Virus record (IMG/VR): IMGVR_UViG_3300023184_000033
Location: 1-64,000 of that record
Direction: 5' to 3' (one strand)
DNA from: a virus
DNA length: 64,000 nucleotides
In this document: one piece after another, positions 15,450 through 24,360 of the stretch
How positions within the stretch are numbered: the first letter of the stretch is position 1
How the letters are laid out: each line of letters opens with the position of its first letter
Position numbers and translations under genes: made by a program
The notes under the pieces: generated by a model
The model's input: the letters and a program-made list of their open reading frames with translations, nothing else
The model's database searches: none
What the model was told of the DNA's origin: nothing

Positions 15450-15851
15450 TCATACAGTAGATTTTCTAGTTACATTCATCATAATAAGACTTCTCACTTT
15501 TTTCTTACGACTAATTCCAGGTTCACCACCTGCTCCGCCTGTACCAGCAATTGCACCACCACCAACTACGTTTGTTGGTCCTGTTGCGACAGCCATGCCA
15601 TCTTCAATCATAAGTTGATTAAGTTCTTGTTTGTATTCTTCTCTGAGCCTAGTAATCAATTTATAATCTTGCATGGTTAATATTCCCTTTTTGCGGATTT
15701 GAATCAATCTCTCAACCATTTTATGTAAATCGATATCCGATTTAATTTTCTCACGTGTTAATTCCAAAACACGAATGAGTAATGGAATATCAAACGTTAC
15801 TGTGTCTTTAGCATCAGTTCTTTCTACAATATATTCTTTGAAGTTTAGCAT
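15450..15851 (-). CDS. Virion-type protein with capsid-targeting-like N-terminus
   Basis: A 133-aa protein starting at ATG 15851 (TAATG overlap with the upstream gene). The first ten residues, MLNFKEYIVE, fit the pattern shared by four other genes here and resemble the T4 internal-protein targeting peptide MKTYQEFIAE. A helical domain follows, then a glycine-rich segment (ATGPTNVVGGGAIAGTGGAG) and a basic tail, a style common in marine myovirus structural proteins. The exact role is unknown. Confidence 0.65.
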   Translation of the reverse strand: MLNFKEYIVERTDAKDTVTFDIPLLIRVLELTREKIKSDIDLHKMVERLIQIRKKGILTMQDYKLITRLREEYKQELNQLMIEDGMAVATGPTNVVGGGAIAGTGGAGGEPGISRKKKVRSLIMMNVTRKSTV

Positions 15852-16582
15852 TAACAGTTCCACTTCCTTAATGATAATGCTTTACGTGATGGTTCACCAT
15901 TTGGTTTTTTCATAGGGCCTGGCATACCACCCATGCGAGCACAGAATGACTTTCTTCTATTTGCAGCTTTAGAACCTGGTTTTAATTTAGATGGTGGTGT
16001 TGTAACTGCCATTGATAAGTGTGAACCTGGATTTTCTCTACGATAAGAAGCGATACCTTTTCGATTCAAACCACCTTTAGGGTCTTTTCCTGCTTTACGT
16101 TGCCATGCAGCAACTTCAAACAATTCTTCGTCTGTTAATTGTTCAAAATCAATATCGTGTTCTTCTAACATATCGAAAAGTTCATCATCTGTTAATTCAA
16201 CTTCTTCATTAGTTTTTTCGTTCTTACTAATCAAGTAGTTACCAACAGTATCAATATAGTCTGCTGATAGTGTTACTTTTGCCTGGACCCAACCAGGTAA
16301 CTGTTTCTCATAGTCTTTACCGATATAAGAACGAACCATCTGTATCGCACGTTCCATTTGGTCTAACTGATTTAAGACCATACTACCTTCATCGTCCATC
16401 ATTTTGCCCATAGCGATGGCGATATGATTCTCATCCACTTGAGTTTCTTCAGGAACACAGTTTGGTACTTTCTTACCATTTTTCATTTTCATGCCGACAG
16501 CAGTATAACCAGTCCAGCAAGCATCTTTCAACTTACCTGTTGGTTCTTTAACTTCGTTTACGAATTGTTTAAAAGATTTCAT
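15851..16582 (-). CDS. Modular virion protein with DUF6321-like C-terminus
   Basis: A 243-aa protein. N-terminus MKSFKQFVNE is capsid-targeting-like. Residues 16-45 form a CWTGYTAVGMK...VPNCVPE module seen in phage structural proteins. The C-terminal 85 residues (AWQRKAGKDPKGGLNRKGI, then RRKSFCARMGGMPGPMKKP, then SLRKWNC) match the recurrent DUF6321-type module. Internal LDE-like acidic segments could be head-protease sites (inference). Confidence 0.7.
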   Translation of the reverse strand: MKSFKQFVNEVKEPTGKLKDACWTGYTAVGMKMKNGKKVPNCVPEETQVDENHIAIAMGKMMDDEGSMVLNQLDQMERAIQMVRSYIGKDYEKQLPGWVQAKVTLSADYIDTVGNYLISKNEKTNEEVELTDDELFDMLEEHDIDFEQLTDEELFEVAAWQRKAGKDPKGGLNRKGIASYRRENPGSHLSMAVTTPPSKLKPGSKAANRRKSFCARMGGMPGPMKKPNGEPSRKALSLRKWNC

Positions 16583-16965
16583 ATGTTTCTGAGTATATCT
16601 GCTACATTGGGTTCTAAAGCTATGTCACATGAATAAATTGTTTTTCCATTAACACCTTTGACTTGGTCAGGCATCAATCTCAAATAATCTAAAAATGTCT
16701 TTAATAAATCGTAATCACGTTCATCAATCTTATAGAACAATATTCTTGATGTAGCTTCAATACCAAAAACATTATTCAATAGTATGATATGATTCAATAT
16801 CAATCTCTCTTTGAGTATCTTTGTGGTTTTATATCTTCTGAACAATCTTTTCAGATATTTTGTTCGTTTGATATCTCCCTCAAACTCAGACATAATGCAT
16901 TGCGGTGAGCTATAACACTTCACCGCATACATCATGAAATTTTCATCGTTTAGGTCATCAAACAT
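16579..16965 (-). CDS. Conserved T4-like protein of unknown function, 128 aa
   Basis: The pattern YAVKCYSSPQC, then EFEGDIKRTKYLKRLFRRY, then RLILNHIILLNNVFG recurs in T4-like phages as a small conserved protein of unknown role near structural genes. It is helical and cytoplasmic in appearance. It overlaps the start of the next gene by 4 bases. Confidence 0.7.
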   Translation of the reverse strand: MFDDLNDENFMMYAVKCYSSPQCIMSEFEGDIKRTKYLKRLFRRYKTTKILKERLILNHIILLNNVFGIEATSRILFYKIDERDYDLLKTFLDYLRLMPDQVKGVNGKTIYSCDIALEPNVADILRNI

Positions 16966-16972
16966 ATTATAT

Positions 16973-16999
16973 AAAAAAACCTTACGGTTTCCCGTAAGG
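16973..16999 (-). terminator. Intrinsic terminator after the 214-aa virion gene
   Basis: On the minus strand an 8-bp GC-rich perfect stem (CCTTACGG, GAAA, CCGTAAGG) is followed directly by seven U residues. It ends the transcript of the gene at 17010-17654. Confidence 0.92.
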
Positions 17000-17009
17000 T
17001 TATAGAGTA

Positions 17010-17654
17010 TTAAACGCCACCAAAGATGCCGTTTGCACTTGTGTTTGCGGACTGTGTATTAGCAGCAGTTGGGTTTGCAAGAGCAACAAGAGTTTCTTTT
17101 AAGAAACGTACTGTACCATCATTATTGATTTTACGAGTAATCTTGTTCCATCCAGTGTTTACGTTACCAATCTTAGTGTTAGCAACAGTAGAACCAGCAC
17201 CACCAGTTGTACCTTGTGTGTTAGCAATACGTGTTGCAGTAATAAGAATAGTGTCGTTTGCATAGTTGGAAGATGTTGCACGATATGCAATACCTGTACC
17301 AATGTAAACGTTTTGACCTGAAGCAAGAGTACCCATAACTGGATTTGCTAATCTGATTCGAGTGTTTGCAGCATCAACAACAGTAACTGTGTTATTTGAA
17401 CGCCAGAAAGAAGCTTCGTTACCATCAATAATTGATAAGTCTTTTGCAGACAAAGAAACAGAGTTATTGGCATCTGCGGAATAAACATACATTCCAGCAG
17501 AAATTAATGCAAAGTTTGTGTTTGATGTGACTACGATTGTATTGCCTGCTGTAGTAGCATTGGCTGTGACTAACGATGTAACAGGAGTCACTTCTCTTTC
17601 TAATGAAAAGTGTGGTTTGTTATTCGCTGTATCTGTATTTCCCCATAAGGCCAT
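17010..17654 (-). CDS. Virion structural protein, Asn/Thr/Ala-rich
   Basis: A 214-aa protein (MALWGNTDTANNKPHFSLER start) with repetitive beta-type sequence and a C-terminus GWNKITRKINNDGTVRFLKE that I recognise from structural proteins of marine myoviruses. It has its own tandem late promoter (17676-17694) and a strong terminator (16973-16999), so it should be a highly expressed late single-gene unit, as expected for a tail tube, decoration or similar abundant protein. The precise identity is not determined. Confidence 0.75.
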   Translation of the reverse strand: MALWGNTDTANNKPHFSLEREVTPVTSLVTANATTAGNTIVVTSNTNFALISAGMYVYSADANNSVSLSAKDLSIIDGNEASFWRSNNTVTVVDAANTRIRLANPVMGTLASGQNVYIGTGIAYRATSSNYANDTILITATRIANTQGTTGGAGSTVANTKIGNVNTGWNKITRKINNDGTVRFLKETLVALANPTAANTQSANTSANGIFGGV

Positions 17655-17675
17655 TTTTTTTCTCCTTGAAAACGG

Positions 17676-17694
17676 TATTTATTTCTTATTTATC
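17676..17694 (-). promoter_or_regulatory. Tandem T4-type late promoter octamers
   Basis: GATAAATA (17694-17687) and AATAAATA (17683-17676) lie 22-33 bases before the ATG at 17654, with AAGGAG between. The first overlaps the 3' end of the upstream gene. Confidence 0.75.
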
Positions 17695-18653
17695 TTTTCT
17701 GAACCACTCTGAACCTTGCGGCGCATGATAGGATCAATTTCTATTGTATCTCTAGTTGTACCAGTCAAGGTTTTACCCCCAGTAAGTACGGCTGCAGCTT
17801 GTGGTTTGTTATCACCAAAACTATCTTTAGGATCAACTGTTTTGAATTTAGGTTTCTTACCATAAGTGGCTACAGATTTGTCTTCTTTTTCACCATCATA
17901 TAATTCTTCTTTGACTGATTGTTTCTTTAAATCATTATCAAACTGTTTTGTTGTGGCTTTAAGGATTCCTTTGAATCTCTTATCACCTGTTTTATAATTG
18001 CCTGCTTGGTCAGCAGCCTTGGCAGCTGCACTAGCACGTGTTTTATATCTTGCAAGAAGGTTTGATGTTAATTCAGATAGTTGCAATTCAGGAATCTCTA
18101 AGGATTCCGAATTCAATCTTTTTTCTGCTCTGTTCTGCCCAATGCTTCTCATTGAAAATTTGTGGCCAGCTTTGTTTGCAGATTTTGGATCTTTATCTCT
18201 GATACCTTTACCAATCTTATCAAACTGGTCACCTTGGTCTTTTTCAGACTTCTTGGCATAAGAGTACAATGTATCTTTGTTCAACTCATCCAATTCTTCA
18301 ACCTCTTCATTCTTTTGTTTTGCGTAGTAAGCAGCAAGAGCCATCTTTTGACGTTTCTCTTTAGACTTACCAGCAAACTTAGGATTATCCGAATGAATGA
18401 AATCGTGAATCCATTCACCAGCAGAAGCATCTTTAGAAAGAACTTCATTCATTTCTTGTTCTAGTTCTTCTTTGAATACGTCTTGTCTCGCACCATTGAG
18501 CTTAACCCAATTCAAAAATGAAGATGACTTAGAATAAGAAATCTTTTGTATCGGTGTAAGATTATCATAACTAATACCCCTAGAACTAAGATATCGATTC
18601 AATAACTTAGATTCAGATAACTTAATAAATTGTTTTAGTTTTTGGCCGTTCAT
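17679..18653 (-). CDS. Modular virion protein with LDEL and AYYAKQK modules
   Basis: A 324-aa protein; start ATG at 18653, two bases after the upstream stop (an upstream ATG at 18731 is less likely). It contains a recurrent phage structural module at about residues 70-115 (SAGEWIHDFIHSDNPKFAG, then KRQKMALAAYYAKQK) and an EEVEELDELNK junction like those in the neighbouring 563-aa protein. It is basic overall. It probably resides in the head; function unknown. Confidence 0.65.
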   Translation of the reverse strand: MNGQKLKQFIKLSESKLLNRYLSSRGISYDNLTPIQKISYSKSSSFLNWVKLNGARQDVFKEELEQEMNEVLSKDASAGEWIHDFIHSDNPKFAGKSKEKRQKMALAAYYAKQKNEEVEELDELNKDTLYSYAKKSEKDQGDQFDKIGKGIRDKDPKSANKAGHKFSMRSIGQNRAEKRLNSESLEIPELQLSELTSNLLARYKTRASAAAKAADQAGNYKTGDKRFKGILKATTKQFDNDLKKQSVKEELYDGEKEDKSVATYGKKPKFKTVDPKDSFGDNKPQAAAVLTGGKTLTGTTRDTIEIDPIMRRKVQSGSEKINKK

Positions 18654-18654
18654 T

Positions 18655-20346
18655 TTAATAACCGTTCGACATTTCTTTTTTGACTTTACCCAAAGCAGCA
18701 CGCAATCTTTCTTTAGGTGACTGTGCTGCATCAGTTACAAAGGGAACTGTATCTGATTCTGGACGCTTACCTTCGGTTTTTAAAGCAGACTTTTTAATCA
18801 TCTTTTTCATGAGAGCTTTGTCTTCTTTCTCATCTTCATGTCCTTCAGATTCTTCATTAGCTTGACGTAAAGCTTTCTGTGCTTGTTTTGTTTGTGATAA
18901 ACCTGGTTTGATTTTATCCATAACATTAGATGCACCAGTCATGTTGCCACCAGCATATCTTTTATCTTTTGCAATACCACCAGCCATCTTCAATTCTTTG
19001 GATGTATATGCTTCAGTCTTCAAAGGAACTTTTGCAGAAGTGTGTTCGTTGTCTTTTTCGAAACCCTTTGGTGCTTTCTTTGGACCAGCCAAAGTATCAA
19101 CAGTCAAACCTTTTGCAGCTTTAACTTCACCAGCTTCATCCAACTCAACTTCTTCTTTTGTTGTCTTTTTAGCTAAATTCATTGCAGCGGTGTAACCAGG
19201 AATACTCGATAGTCTTTTTAGACGTACTGGATCTTTTGCAGTTTCTTTACCAGCTGCAGACAATCTTGCCTGACGATCATCAAAATCTTTTTTAGATTCT
19301 TTGTTGGCTTCATCCAATTCAACATCTTCGTTTCTTTGGATGTTACCTTTTAATCTGTTAACATCTTGTTTGTTTGCTTTTCCAGCACTAGTCACACGAG
19401 CAGGAGTTCTGTGTGCAAGTTTGTCATAGCTTCCAAATGTATGACCCGGCCTTGGATAATGACCTTTAGCATCAGCAGCGCCCTGAACTGCTGCTGCAGA
19501 TTTTGCATCTTTGGTTTTCTTAGCATGATCTGCAAATTTCTGAGGATCGTGTGACTTACCATAATGATAGTCTGAATCAGGATCGGATGCAGACTTAGCA
19601 GCACTAGCTAAAGTTTTTGTTGACAATTCATCTAGTTCTTCAACTTCTTCTTTTTTAAGTTTACTAAGTAACGCTTTTCCTGCTTCGGCTTTCTTATCAG
19701 AAACCATGCGATCTTTAGCCGCTTGAACTTTTGCTTTAGATTCTGCACTAGTTCTATCTACATATTTGCTAGTTTGTTTTTCCTTAGGACCGGAACCTTC
19801 CTCAATCTCAACTTCTTCTTTTTGAGCACGTAGAATCTTAAAGTCTTGTGGATCAATCTTGTTGTTTTTATTCTTATCAATCTCCTTTTGATTACCTTTT
19901 AGACTCTCAATAAGACGGTTTTTAAAGTCTCCGAAAGATTCTTTTTTCATTTCTTTTTTCTTATCAAGTCTTTCAGTTTCTTTTTCACGTTCGTCATCTT
20001 TTTGGCCAGCGCCACCATAACGTGTACCTGCTTTTTGGCCAATGTGACCTTTTGGTTGTGGTCCGGCTTTGTCTTTAACATACTTTTGCATGTCAGCCCA
20101 AGCTTCTATAATTTCTTCAATGTTCTCAGAAACTAAATGACCAGCTTTCTTAGCAGTATTTAAAACATCCGTTCTATCTTTAAAGGAACCATTGAATACC
20201 TTTTTGGCCAAAAATGGCTTATAAACGGCATGATGTTCTGGCTTGATGTGTTTTAACAATATCCTCGCTTGTGGATGGATATCTTCTGACATAGCAGAAT
20301 TAACTGCATCCAATAAACTCTGTGAAATGGATTTTTGGCCGTACAT
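18655..20346 (-). CDS. Large modular virion protein with repeated VELDE junctions
   Basis: A 563-aa lysine/alanine-rich protein of low predicted globularity. Acidic junctions recur: EEVEIEE near residue 172, EEVEELDELS near 228, EDVELDEA near 340 and EEVELDEA near 400. They separate basic modules. LDE and IEE fit the (L/I)-X-E cleavage rule of the T4 head maturation protease gp21, so processing into peptides inside the capsid is plausible (inference). An EF-hand-like stretch (DKNKNNKIDPQDF) lies near residue 157. Confidence 0.6.
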   Translation of the reverse strand: MYGQKSISQSLLDAVNSAMSEDIHPQARILLKHIKPEHHAVYKPFLAKKVFNGSFKDRTDVLNTAKKAGHLVSENIEEIIEAWADMQKYVKDKAGPQPKGHIGQKAGTRYGGAGQKDDEREKETERLDKKKEMKKESFGDFKNRLIESLKGNQKEIDKNKNNKIDPQDFKILRAQKEEVEIEEGSGPKEKQTSKYVDRTSAESKAKVQAAKDRMVSDKKAEAGKALLSKLKKEEVEELDELSTKTLASAAKSASDPDSDYHYGKSHDPQKFADHAKKTKDAKSAAAVQGAADAKGHYPRPGHTFGSYDKLAHRTPARVTSAGKANKQDVNRLKGNIQRNEDVELDEANKESKKDFDDRQARLSAAGKETAKDPVRLKRLSSIPGYTAAMNLAKKTTKEEVELDEAGEVKAAKGLTVDTLAGPKKAPKGFEKDNEHTSAKVPLKTEAYTSKELKMAGGIAKDKRYAGGNMTGASNVMDKIKPGLSQTKQAQKALRQANEESEGHEDEKEDKALMKKMIKKSALKTEGKRPESDTVPFVTDAAQSPKERLRAALGKVKKEMSNGY

Positions 20347-20348
20347 AT

Positions 20349-22166
20349 TTACTTCTCCTGTTTTTTCTTCTTTTTAGGTATTTCCGTACCAATTAAATTG
20401 TCTTTGTTTGAACTCATGGGTTCTTTATTACTTGCACCACCCAAAACACCACCGACACCCATATCATCTGCACCTGGATTATCGATGGCTTCTTTAAAAC
20501 TCTTAAAACTTCTATATTCTTCTCGGTATGTTACATCGCCAAGACCTGACATAGGATATACTGTTCCTTGTTGGCGTGTATCGAATTCTGGTCCTAGTCC
20601 TGTAATATTTCTCATTCTTTGAGGAACTGTAGGAGAAGTATTACCAAATTTCTTGGCTCTTATTTTGTCTTTGTCTTGGCTGAAGTTTTTTTCCTTGGAT
20701 TGCGGGTAGACTTTGATTGTGGGTTCGCTGCTGGCTTCGGCGTAGATTGCTCCTGGACCTGGACTAAGGGTTCTGGTTCGCTTTGGGGCGTTCCACTTTG
20801 GATCATCGGCGTTGGCGTCTCCTGCACGGTTGTCTGGGATAGCGTCACTTGGACCTGCTGCTCTGGCACCACCGGCGCTGCGGAGTTTTGGACTTCTGCT
20901 GGCTTCTTTGAGCCTCTGAATAAATTTAGAAGAGATTTTAACATTTTCATTTACCTCAAATATAAAATTGGACTTGCTATTTAACGTATTACGATTTTCT
21001 AACCACGAAAAAGAGATATCATTATACGACTTGTAATCGATGAAATGATTAACACCTTTATATATCTCTGTTATATACTCTTCTATTAAATCTAACGGTT
21101 TTGTGTTGTCAAATGTAATGAAGGATTTAAACATCTCAGAGAATACTTTTTTGTTTTCTTGTGATTTTTGCCACTTTTCGTAACGTAAAGATTCGACCAT
21201 CATTTTAGATAATCTGGAGTTTCTCTCTTTACTTACTTCATTTGTGGAATTAACAAAAACCATCATGGAAGAATAACCCATGTCTTCAAGTTCTTCTTTA
21301 ACATAGGTTATTTTTTCAATGTTATCAGCAGAACAATTAATAATCAATGGTTTACGAAAACGAATAGCTTCCAATCGCATATCACCAGTATTTCTTTCAG
21401 CAAGTCTTCCTTTATCGGAAAGATAATCAAAGGCTTGATTTAAATTGTATTCTACAGCAGTAGCTTCAGGAATGGCTTCACGGATAATAATATCTTTACC
21501 AGAACCTGGACCACCAGTTACAAAGATAGCTTTGAAGATGCCACGGTCTGTGGCTTCATGCAAGCCCATACCTTTTCTTGTGTCATGCATCAATTCGTGT
21601 GCATGTTCATCCGAAACATGAGATGGCACACCTTGTTTAAAAGATTTGATATCTTTATTCTTAGCATGTTCACGCATTTTGGTGCCGGACATGCCAGTTG
21701 TACCTTCAGCATCAGGATCACGCTGGCCAGCAGAATGTACATGAATTTTCTTAAAGTTATACAATGCACCAGTATGAGTACCATTGTATTGGTGCAACTT
21801 TTTCTTGTATTCTTCTACTCTATCGGAACCAGCAACCATGTGTAAGTGAGTTACACCTTGTTTGTGTAATTCTGCTGCATGGTGTAAAAACGTTGGATGT
21901 TCTTTACTTGAAGCTTTAAAGTTGGTGCCTGGAGAATATCTCTTCAAGTGTTTAACTTTTTGTGCAGGAGACAAAGGATTCTTTTTTGAATCCTGTGAAT
22001 GTGAAGCAACAACTGTGTGACCAGCACCTTGATTCTTCGCAATTTCTTTTACTTTGTTGATTAATTTTAGGTGACCGGTTGTGGGCGGATTCATTCGACC
22101 AAAGGCCATCACGTGATGTACTTCATCACCTTTTGCTTCTTCAACTAAATCTAAAAAGGATTTCAT
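20349..22166 (-). CDS. Capsid-targeted-type nucleotidyltransferase plus P-loop kinase
   Basis: A 605-aa protein. N-terminus MKSFLDLVEE resembles a capsid-targeting peptide. Residues 15-180 form a cytidylyltransferase-fold domain: GRMNPPTTGHLKLI (the HxGH-type motif is TTGH) and GMSGTKMRE (ISSTxxR-like). Residues 215-390 carry a P-loop kinase-like domain (FVTGGPGSGKDII). The C-terminal 180 residues are disordered and basic. This order resembles NadR (NMN adenylyltransferase plus ribosylnicotinamide kinase), but substrate identity cannot be read from sequence. Confidence 0.75.
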   Translation of the reverse strand: MKSFLDLVEEAKGDEVHHVMAFGRMNPPTTGHLKLINKVKEIAKNQGAGHTVVASHSQDSKKNPLSPAQKVKHLKRYSPGTNFKASSKEHPTFLHHAAELHKQGVTHLHMVAGSDRVEEYKKKLHQYNGTHTGALYNFKKIHVHSAGQRDPDAEGTTGMSGTKMREHAKNKDIKSFKQGVPSHVSDEHAHELMHDTRKGMGLHEATDRGIFKAIFVTGGPGSGKDIIIREAIPEATAVEYNLNQAFDYLSDKGRLAERNTGDMRLEAIRFRKPLIINCSADNIEKITYVKEELEDMGYSSMMVFVNSTNEVSKERNSRLSKMMVESLRYEKWQKSQENKKVFSEMFKSFITFDNTKPLDLIEEYITEIYKGVNHFIDYKSYNDISFSWLENRNTLNSKSNFIFEVNENVKISSKFIQRLKEASRSPKLRSAGGARAAGPSDAIPDNRAGDANADDPKWNAPKRTRTLSPGPGAIYAEASSEPTIKVYPQSKEKNFSQDKDKIRAKKFGNTSPTVPQRMRNITGLGPEFDTRQQGTVYPMSGLGDVTYREEYRSFKSFKEAIDNPGADDMGVGGVLGGASNKEPMSSNKDNLIGTEIPKKKKKQEK

Positions 22167-22169
22167 TTA

Positions 22170-23138
22170 TTATTTGTGACCTAGAGTTTTCTTAAATTTG
22201 TGTAGGTGTTCATCATTATCCAAATCGATGTGACTTTTATTCAGGCCTTTGACACCATCTGGATGAAAAGCAACAGTTCTCGCACTCTTGTTTCCTTTTT
22301 GTTTTTCTCTGATTCTCCATTTACCTTTTCCTGAGATTGAAGGTAAACCATGGCCAGTTTGATCCGTGCCAACTTTGTATGTACCGTGGCCTCCAACTTG
22401 CAACATATGCACATGATGGTCTTTCAGATAACCTTCTGCTGGATGCAAGTTTGGATGTTTAATTTCGATTGTCGTTGCACGACCAGACGCTGTTGCAGGT
22501 TCTTTACTTGGGTCTGGATGATGTGTATTCATGTGTTTTAGAATACCAGATTTAACAATGTGTTTTGCATATTCCGGACGTTTGGCTTTTTGCTCAGGTT
22601 TGATATGCCAACCTTTTTCTGCATTGTGGTGAATCGTCAACTGACCCATTGCGGCAGTTGTACCATTCTTAGTTTCACCATTTAATAGATGGCCACTAAC
22701 GGATCCTGCAATAAAGTGACCTTTTTTCTTATGTTCGACCGTAAAGTCAGTACCGCCAGTTGAACCTGCACCAGACATATGTTTTGGCATTAGTCCATGA
22801 TGTTTCATACGGTCAACGAACTTGGTCTCATAATCGTGACCTTTGTTCTTTGGTGCTTCACCTGGTTTATGTAACTTAGATGCAGGAATAACGTGGTGAT
22901 TTCCAGTTTCATCTTCTGCGTGTACATGTACCTTGTTATTAATATGTTCTACTTTATGAATCTTTACAGCAGAACCTTTTGGTAAATCGTCATGTTCAGC
23001 AGCTAAATTATGTGAGAACTTATTTGAACCCACATGTGGATCAATATATTTCTTTTTGTGTTCTGCACCTATAGGTCCAGAAGCTGTTAATTTTCCACGA
23101 CCAGCTTCTTCATTTAAAAAGGAACCAAATGATTTCAT
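22170..23138 (-). CDS. His-rich PD-(D/E)XK-like protein with capsid-targeting-like N-terminus
   Basis: A 322-aa protein very rich in histidine and lysine. N-terminus MKSFGSFLNE fits the shared targeting pattern. A candidate restriction-like core at residues 98-170 reads YETKFVDRMKHHG, then GGTDFTVEH, then NGETKNGTTAAMGQLTI: a helix with Glu, an acidic residue, E-x-K and a following A..GQ helix. This parallels the core of the protein at 29545-30252. Its nuclease activity is a prediction. Confidence 0.6.
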   Translation of the reverse strand: MKSFGSFLNEEAGRGKLTASGPIGAEHKKKYIDPHVGSNKFSHNLAAEHDDLPKGSAVKIHKVEHINNKVHVHAEDETGNHHVIPASKLHKPGEAPKNKGHDYETKFVDRMKHHGLMPKHMSGAGSTGGTDFTVEHKKKGHFIAGSVSGHLLNGETKNGTTAAMGQLTIHHNAEKGWHIKPEQKAKRPEYAKHIVKSGILKHMNTHHPDPSKEPATASGRATTIEIKHPNLHPAEGYLKDHHVHMLQVGGHGTYKVGTDQTGHGLPSISGKGKWRIREKQKGNKSARTVAFHPDGVKGLNKSHIDLDNDEHLHKFKKTLGHK

Positions 23139-24304
23139 TTTCTCACCTTTAATAAGTTTTGTTTAGCAAATTCTGGACGATTAACCAATTTAGTTGGTTC
23201 ATTGTCATGATGAATCACAAATCCTTCTGGTTTAGACTTCTTACCTTCAATGTGGTGTTCGTAATGTCCTTCATGTGTCTCTAAAGAATTTACTAGATGA
23301 TTCTTAGCTTGTGCTAGATGATGGTGCATTGATAACAAATTACCATAGTGTGACTTGTTCTTTTCGATATGTGCAACTTGTGCTTTACCTTCACCAGTCT
23401 TTTCGTTTTTAGACTTTTCAGTCTTAACTTTGGCAGCAGCTTTTTCGTAAACATTTTTTACATGATCCTTGAAACCTTTAACACTAGGAACTAAATCGTG
23501 TCTAACTGTGTGGTTGATATAAGTCGATAAGTGACCATGTTCACCACTATGTGCTGGATGAACAGCATCATACATCTTATGGCCATGTGTATCATGGATT
23601 TCTTTTGCTGCAGCCATGTGTTTTTGAAACCCATGTTCGTTCGCAGTTGAATGTTTAACTTTTGATGTGTCGTGTTCTGCACCGTGAATGTGAACATCTG
23701 GATGCTCTTTAAACTTACTAATGTCTACGTGTGGAGTATTGCTTTTTAAGTCATCGCCATATTGTGTATGAACTACAACGCCGACTTTAGATTTTTTAGC
23801 CTTGTCGGCTTCTTTTCCGTGAGCTGTATAAGTGATGGTGTTTGGAGTGAACGAAACACTCTCATGCAAAGTCTTTGTATCTACATGGTGCATCACATCA
23901 CCTTGGAATACACCTTTCTTAGGTGTAACTTTTGGTAGATGTTTTAATGCGTGTTTTAATGTTGTTGCAAGACCTGGCGCATGGCCATGGTTCTTATCAA
24001 TATCAGCTTCAGTATGGTTGATTTTTGGATTCTTGTTGAACGCAGACTTGGTTGCAACAAAAAACTTACCATTTTTAGGATGATGGCCAAAGACAATTGA
24101 TGGTGAACCATCATATTTCATTGTCAGGTTGGTACTTTTGTGACCAGAAGTCATGTGTGCATGAGCTTTATGTAAAGCTGCAAATGCATGTTCAAAACCA
24201 GCATGGCCGTGCATCAAAGGACGGTCTTCAGCATGGTGAATATGTTTTAACTCGGAACCTTCTTGGTCGGCTTCCTCAGATAAGAACGATTTAAATGTCA
24301 ACAT
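23135..24304 (-). CDS. His-rich ligase-like (DUF6267-type) protein with capsid-targeting-like N-terminus
   Basis: A 389-aa protein. N-terminus MLTFKSFLSE fits the targeting pattern. TMKYDGSPSIVFGHHPKNGK near residue 62 holds a KxDG motif like motif I of DNA/RNA ligases; later PEGFVIHHDN near 362 resembles the motif EG(V/F)V and the terminal lysines could complete the set. I recall such phage proteins under DUF6267. A covalent nucleotidyltransferase is a reasonable prediction. A TATAAATA late promoter lies 49 bases upstream. Confidence 0.6.
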   Translation of the reverse strand: MLTFKSFLSEEADQEGSELKHIHHAEDRPLMHGHAGFEHAFAALHKAHAHMTSGHKSTNLTMKYDGSPSIVFGHHPKNGKFFVATKSAFNKNPKINHTEADIDKNHGHAPGLATTLKHALKHLPKVTPKKGVFQGDVMHHVDTKTLHESVSFTPNTITYTAHGKEADKAKKSKVGVVVHTQYGDDLKSNTPHVDISKFKEHPDVHIHGAEHDTSKVKHSTANEHGFQKHMAAAKEIHDTHGHKMYDAVHPAHSGEHGHLSTYINHTVRHDLVPSVKGFKDHVKNVYEKAAAKVKTEKSKNEKTGEGKAQVAHIEKNKSHYGNLLSMHHHLAQAKNHLVNSLETHEGHYEHHIEGKKSKPEGFVIHHDNEPTKLVNRPEFAKQNLLKVRK

Positions 24305-24352: not shown

Positions 24353-24360
24353 TATTTATA
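24353..24360 (-). promoter_or_regulatory. T4-type late promoter TATAAATA
   Basis: A perfect TATAAATA on the minus strand, 49 bases before the ATG at 24304. It would drive the capsid-cargo gene run 24304 to 17679. Confidence 0.8.

Follow-up and report, generated by a model that had tools for sequence, protein, structure and literature searches.

Five genes on the minus strand of an environmental phage genome, IMG/VR record IMGVR_UViG_3300023184_000033, share a short N-terminal tag of the kind that directs the internal proteins of phage T4 into the capsid, and we consider it highly probable that they form a late operon of cargo genes, their products being taken into the prohead by way of this tag and probably injected into the host. 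The window analysed is the first 64 kb (64,000 nucleotides) of the 163,824-bp record, and genome-wide scans took in the whole record. Judged by its gene content this is a T4-like phage: genes for a gp22-like scaffold, gp23, portal, sheath and terminase were read from the record, the terminase being 54% identical to those of Synechococcus myoviruses, and a Peptidase_S77 prohead protease of the gp21 type lies outside the window (C1:72139-72585; PF03420, E 2e-33).

We propose that the five genes are part of a late cargo cluster in which the capsid-targeting sequence of each product, about ten residues long, would bind the scaffold core as the prohead grows, thereby bringing the protein into the head. 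The gp21 homolog would then cut after Glu10, leaving the body in the mature head with the DNA, and on infection the cargo would probably be ejected into the host. While core binding, cleavage after residue 10 and injection are carried over by analogy from T4, packaging is well supported through the relatives of this phage. The tag would act as a detachable and interchangeable module, and thus unrelated enzymes could be slotted behind it.

The N-terminal tag and its distribution in the genome

An earlier note on this DNA, made from the sequence, gave the five genes with coordinates and N-termini that proved exact throughout, and described their bodies as otherwise unrelated; in agreement with this, blastp among the five bodies returned nothing below E 0.2. 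A strict motif scan of both strands recovered the five genes and two further positions, each of them a non-ATG codon within a longer frame. With a weighted profile of the tag built from environmental relatives, the training set for which was picked by regular expression, the products scored 18.9 (15450-15851), 24.2 (15851-16582), 15.3 (20349-22166), 17.7 (22170-23138) and 19.7 (23135-24304), against a next-best score of 3.3 among the 1,150 ATG starts of the record. These are the only strong T4-type capsid-targeting N-termini in the 164 kb. When the N-termini of 168 open reading frames were shuffled, the motif was matched 0.16 times on average and at most 3 times, a profile score of 10 was exceeded by a mean of 0.0095 genes, and the probability that five random genes would fall within a run of nine neighbours is ~1e-5; on these shuffling and clustering statistics a chance origin was rejected. 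A DNA repeat was likewise rejected, since the tag is encoded by different codons in the five genes. The broader proposal that the shared N-termini mark a recombination joint or a translation-start element, conserved at the DNA level and with no targeting role, could draw on the modularity of the cluster and the swapping of its cargo slots. It is barely conceivable given that the same residues are written with different codons both within and between phages, and that the tag predicts virion content in the cyanophage S-CREM2 and finds the experimentally known tags of T4.

For the IPIII protein of T4, an N-terminal stretch of ten residues suffices for head loading, residues 4 and 7 being needed for targeting and residues 8 and 10 for processing, and similar capsid-targeting sequences have been noted on other proteins of the close relatives of T4 (PMC9026906). 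All five tags match the IPII/IPIII-type pattern of ten residues with an aromatic residue at position 4 and Glu10. Moreover, the environmental profile, with no T4 sequence in its training, ranks T4 ipIII and ipII (14.4) and ipI (7.1) first to third among the 695 ATG starts in T4 positions 1-100,000. The earlier note set the tags beside the T4 peptide, which gp21 removes after (L/I)-x-E, and listed an aliphatic position 8 and Glu10 among the features kept; this calls for two corrections. Glu10 is retained in five of five tags, while residues 8-10 read IVE, LNE and LSE in three and VNE (15851-16582) and VEE (20349-22166) in the others. With valine at residue 8 in two tags, the strict form of the gp21 rule of T4, (L/I)-x-E, therefore holds for three of the five. 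Residue 7 of the 20349-22166 product is Leu and not aromatic.

These valines bear on a somewhat unlikely alternative, in which V-x-E tags direct proteins to the core and either stay uncut or are cut elsewhere. Cleavage by T4 gp21 has been described to follow L/I-x-E; T4 IPI begins MKTFKEFTSTTTPVSTITEA, without L/I-x-E at residues 8-10; and a pelagic subgroup of relatives of the 23135-24304 product (MFSFKGFQTQD) retains F4 and F7 with the cut site lost. On the other side stand the Glu10 of all five tags and the interchange of V, L and I at position 8 among relatives of the 20349-22166 product, in a set filtered by the motif. In our preferred account the tags would be cut after Glu10. In gp23 of this phage, QLNE occupies the alignment column of FLTE in T4 gp23, which has a propeptide of 65 residues; L-x-E is retained in this column, which we take to be the T4 cut site.

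As for expression, 70 of the 103 tagged orthologs have TATAAATA, the T4-type late promoter sequence, within 120 nucleotides upstream (52-55 nucleotides in most), as against 1.2% expected; this sequence also precedes gp22 and gp23 of this phage. From this promoter and the overlapping or abutting arrangement of the genes, we infer that the cluster is transcribed as a single late unit.

Recurrence of the tag and virion content of related phages

The search of related phages for the same N-terminal profile, which the earlier note had suggested, finds the tag again and again. Across ~170 related loci from viral contigs the motif occurs at 307 of 3,792 first ATGs (8.1%), versus 33 of 11,289 internal ATGs (0.29%). 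The matches make up 39 families, ~34 of which are credible cargo and five of which were set aside; regular-expression false positives that were dropped include a methyltransferase family and UvsX (families F8 and F11). The slot directly behind the gene of the 23135-24304 type, which encodes a DUF6267 protein, is occupied by tagged proteins that differ from phage to phage and are unrelated to one another (families F4, F6, F7 and F19). Tagged cargo in the relatives includes an ADP-ribosyltransferase in one (L082:2819-3523; PF03496 4e-12), an adenylate kinase in another (L164:1261-1863; PF00406 3e-41), whose domain begins at its own Met17 just past the tag, a HAD-like protein in two (family F18; a weak match), a protein kinase and an S-adenosylmethionine (SAM) hydrolase. 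Among DUF6267 orthologs collected regardless of the tag, nearly all above 42% identity are tagged; distant pelagic orthologs begin with the untagged MSKNTHLEHLED.

The published virion proteome of S-CREM2 comprises 52 proteins (PMC10665884). The four S-CREM2 proteins that the profile ranks highest out of 219 are three enzymes and one small protein: gp154, a cytidylyltransferase (MKNFSSFLTEA), gp6, a SAM hydrolase (MKDFDSFLEE), gp14, an APH-like kinase (MKRFDAFLTEE), and gp13 (MKDLHSFLTEQ). Each of these was detected in virions, while none of the 167 undetected proteins reaches the profile threshold (Fisher P 0.003). Over the whole set of non-structural S-CREM2 virion proteins the profile gave no significant rank-sum result (P 0.27), because most of these lack the tag; the information lies in the high-scoring tail alone. 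Together with a Cas9-annotated nuclease, gp154, gp6 and gp14 are all four of the non-structural, non-lytic enzymes in the S-CREM2 virion list. This nuclease, gp12 (L011:7704-10313; annotated Cas9/Csn1), has a tag-like LRFASFMAEA from residue 17.

Other cyanophages offer comparable cases. A kinase described as detected in S-CRM01 virions begins MISFDQFLSEK, and the virion cytidylyltransferase of S-SZBM1 begins MRFRQFIIEA, with a tag, MRFRQFIIE, one residue shorter. Cytidylyltransferase-like proteins have been detected in the virions of S-SM1 (PMC3037559), S-SZBM1 (PMC9146016) and S-SCSM1 (PMC9602691; annotated NMNAT); with S-CREM2 this makes four phages in which the enzyme was detected independently. 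Published virion mass spectrometry thus finds tagged proteins in S-CREM2, S-CRM01 and S-SZBM1, and this, with the recurrence of the tag, supports the claim of the earlier note that the phage packages a set of different proteins in its head. At a second site in S-SZBM1, near the terminase genes, S-SZBM1_191 and _192 (L187:14312-15126) carry near-perfect tags (MKSFKSFLSES and MKTFKQYITEA); their neighbour, S-SZBM1_190, is a detected virion protein. The untagged DUF6267 homolog of S-SZBM1, _141, is missing from the virion proteins detected in that phage, and so are these two small tagged proteins.

The S-CREM2 authors proposed no targeting signal and left contamination open (PMC10665884). Carry-over of abundant late proteins into virion preparations, with some other function for the tag, is nonetheless very improbable: it would not be expected to pick out the tagged proteins, as the four-of-four and none-of-167 counts do, nor to account for the cytidylyltransferase being detected independently in four phages.

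Several observations weigh against the packaging and injection account and should be set beside this evidence. The published detection by itself leaves co-purification possible, as the S-CREM2 authors note, and the virion data come from relatives only. S-SZBM1_191 and _192, both small, have excellent tags and yet are absent from the 30 detected proteins of that phage; conversely, S-CREM2 gp155, gp156 and gp160 are in virions without a tag, so that the tag is not the sole route. Some orthologs lack the tag, as do the DUF6267 proteins of Syn9 and of pelagic phages. Finally, there are the regular-expression choice of the profile's training set and the V-x-E in two of the five tags.

The proposed cargo proteins and their neighbours

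The further claim that several of the tagged products are enzyme-like is borne out (Table 1).

Table 1. The tagged genes, two untagged cluster genes and the promoter sequence; positions are those of the window.
Feature	Position	Strand	N-terminus or remark
DUF6267 protein, 389 residues	23135..24304	-	tag MLTFKSFLSE then EA; tag DNA 24275-24304
Variable-slot cargo, 322 residues	22170..23138	-	tag MKSFGSFLNE then EA; tag DNA 23109-23138
Cytidylyltransferase/NMNAT-like and P-loop kinase, 605 residues	20349..22166	-	tag MKSFLDLVEE then AK; tag DNA 22137-22166
DUF6321-containing protein, 243 residues	15851..16582	-	tag MKSFKQFVNE; tag DNA 16553-16582
Small protein, 133 residues	15450..15851	-	tag MLNFKEYIVE; tag DNA 15822-15851
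Lys/Glu-rich protein, untagged, within cluster	18655..20346	-	N-terminus MYGQKSISQSLLDAVNSAMSE
Second Lys/Glu-rich untagged cluster protein	17679..18653	-	start read as MNGQKLKQFIK at 18653
T4-type late promoter sequence TATAAATA	24353..24360	-	56 nucleotides upstream of first cargo gene

The 23135-24304 product matches DUF6267 (PF19782, 6e-97). In 51 sequences K63-x-D65-G66, E360-G361 and K372 are invariant, and we take these to correspond to motifs I, IV and V of ligases. Its AlphaFold model (predicted local distance difference test score 91) is ordered from about residue 20, with residues 1-18, which include the tag, disordered; the tag is unfolded in the model of the 22170-23138 product as well. 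Structural alignment of the DUF6267 model by VIA-align placed the Naegleria RNA ligase first (Z 9.6, root-mean-square deviation 3.7 over 184 residues), followed by T4 Rnl2, a tRNA ligase, T4 Rnl1 and DNA ligases, with Z from 9.6 to 6 and ~182-187 residues aligned for the best. Foldseek alone gave no match to this model with E below 0.001, and support from the model for an RNA-ligase-type covalent nucleotidyltransferase fold is therefore moderate. Sequence searches of the PDB with the DUF6267 and 20349-22166 products gave nothing useful.

The 20349-22166 product has a cytidylyltransferase/NMNAT-like domain (PF01467 1.6e-6; phrog_3041 1.2e-66) and a kinase domain resembling Zeta_toxin, AAA_33 and NMP kinases, by matches in relatives. 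When it is compared with the NadR-type fusion of NMNAT and ribosylnicotinamide kinase, the cytidylyltransferase-like domain is present and the second domain resembles zeta toxin, AAA_33 and NMP kinases; in HTVC008M, cytidylyltransferase and kinase are separate genes. In two pelagic loci (L161:6039-7211 and L174:2881-4053) the DUF6267 frame begins with an NMNAT-like sequence (MKKTAILPGGFKPPHAGH), and PHROG 455 spans both DUF6267 and the cytidylyltransferase, the two proteins being sometimes one.

In the variable slot, the 22170-23138 product contains an SH3-like barrel, with structural matches only for residues 15-95, and a PD-(D/E)xK-like motif (E104, D131, E155-x-K157, Q166) in a weakly modelled region; a PDB sequence search found no match, and this motif is suggestive of a nuclease. 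The 15851-16582 product ends in DUF6321 (PF19846 4.2e-23), and a similar module lies at the end of the S-CREM2 virion protein gp137. The 15450-15851 product has small tagged relatives in loci L052 and L078. Its C-terminal stretch, ATGPTNVVGGGAIAGTGG, resembles ATGPTNVTGG just past the presumed gp23 cut site of this phage, and stretches of this type recur in small tagged proteins of relatives (L105:19161-19349).

His is far more frequent in the 23135-24304 and 22170-23138 products (13.4% and 11.5%) than in any other protein of the genome (median 1.6%); both are poor in Arg (1-2%) and free of Cys, and their relatives look alike, a composition that might relate to packing with the DNA or to passage through the tail. 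Such composition enters into a distinctly improbable alternative, namely that the tagged proteins, once in the prohead core, serve to assemble the head or pack the DNA, a role that IPIII partly has in T4, and are not injected effectors. T4 IPIII mutants show head defects (PMC9026906), the same two cargo proteins are also Lys-rich, as a DNA-packing protein might be, and the cluster also contains core-like repeat proteins. However, the catalytic-type motifs of DUF6267 and the tagged adenylate kinase, ADP-ribosyltransferase, protein kinase and SAM hydrolase of the relatives fit delivery and not scaffolding, and the occupant of the second slot changes freely among the relatives.

If the cargo is delivered, the roles of its members (RNA-ligase-type, NMNAT-like with kinase, and nuclease-like) are the most tentative part of our account; they possibly lie in RNA repair or in NAD/nucleotide metabolism against defence. 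A more specific version, which we hold to be unlikely, is that the head carries a ready-made kit for nucleic-acid repair and nucleotides, which enters the cell at time zero to counter host defences. It would consist of the DUF6267 RNA-ligase-type enzyme and of the fusion of P-loop kinase and NMNAT-like enzyme, joined in relatives by a tagged adenylate kinase, ADP-ribosyltransferase or HAD-like phosphatase. Were this so, defences that act by RNA cleavage or by draining nucleotides or NAD would be countered before any phage gene is expressed.

Among the untagged neighbours, the 18655-20346 product, whose N-terminus has a similar counterpart in DLP_6, is possibly a prohead core protein. The proteins of 17679-20346 carry repeated VEELDEL, VELDEA and VEIEEG sites, which could be prohead-protease sites between small modules. 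The density of [LI]xE in them is not above that of composition shuffles (7 versus 4.8, P 0.19), no protein with three such sites was found in the 13 related loci checked, and these proteins are at most candidates for a diced polyprotein. A small conserved protein, DUF7207 (16579-16965; phrog_407), adjoins the tagged genes and has similar counterparts in HTVC008M, Syn9 and S-CREM2. In the collection of papers searched, none mentions DUF6267, DUF6321 or DUF7207.

Relation to known systems

The tag and its mechanism are already known from T4. New here are two things: in phages far from T4, larger enzyme-like cargo is clustered behind the tag in slots whose occupants interchange; and across phages, the tag agrees with what is found in virions. 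This provides a rule by which the head-borne proteins of environmental T4-like phages can be told from sequence, and it accounts for enzymes that several cyanophage virion studies reported without explanation. Many phage genes of unknown function thereby become testable candidates for injected effectors. Related phages probably deliver ready-made enzymes together with their DNA, and the swap-in slots resemble a natural delivery system, the cargo list of which can be read from genomes.

At the level of a single cargo protein, DUF6267 shares the KxDG, EG and K motifs with Rnl1, Rnl2 and the Naegleria RNA ligase, which are its best structural matches, but at ~10% sequence identity and with an extra helical region. 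At the level of the virion, the cyanophages S-CREM2, S-SCSM1, S-SZBM1, S-SM1 and S-CRM01 have homologous or analogous virion enzymes, several with the same tag, whereas they were published as unexplained virion-associated proteins. In giant phages such as SPN3US (protease gp245), too, head-loaded proteins are reported to be cut by a prohead protease and ejected (PMC7411985, PMC10052503).

The closest parallels lie in T4. Alt, a head-packaged and ejected ADP-ribosyltransferase (PMC9026906), is a precedent for an ejected enzyme cut by gp21, and one related locus has a tagged ADP-ribosyltransferase; in contrast, the Alt propeptide is of 7 residues and the window of this phage holds no ADP-ribosyltransferase. 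With IPI, IPII and IPIII the five proteins have in common the length, position and residue pattern of the tag, the protease family and the T4-like genome. However, T4 bears the tag on basic proteins of small size whose genes stand alone or in a pair, whereas here it opens each of a clustered set of larger, enzyme-like proteins, with one predicted late promoter and interchangeable slots.

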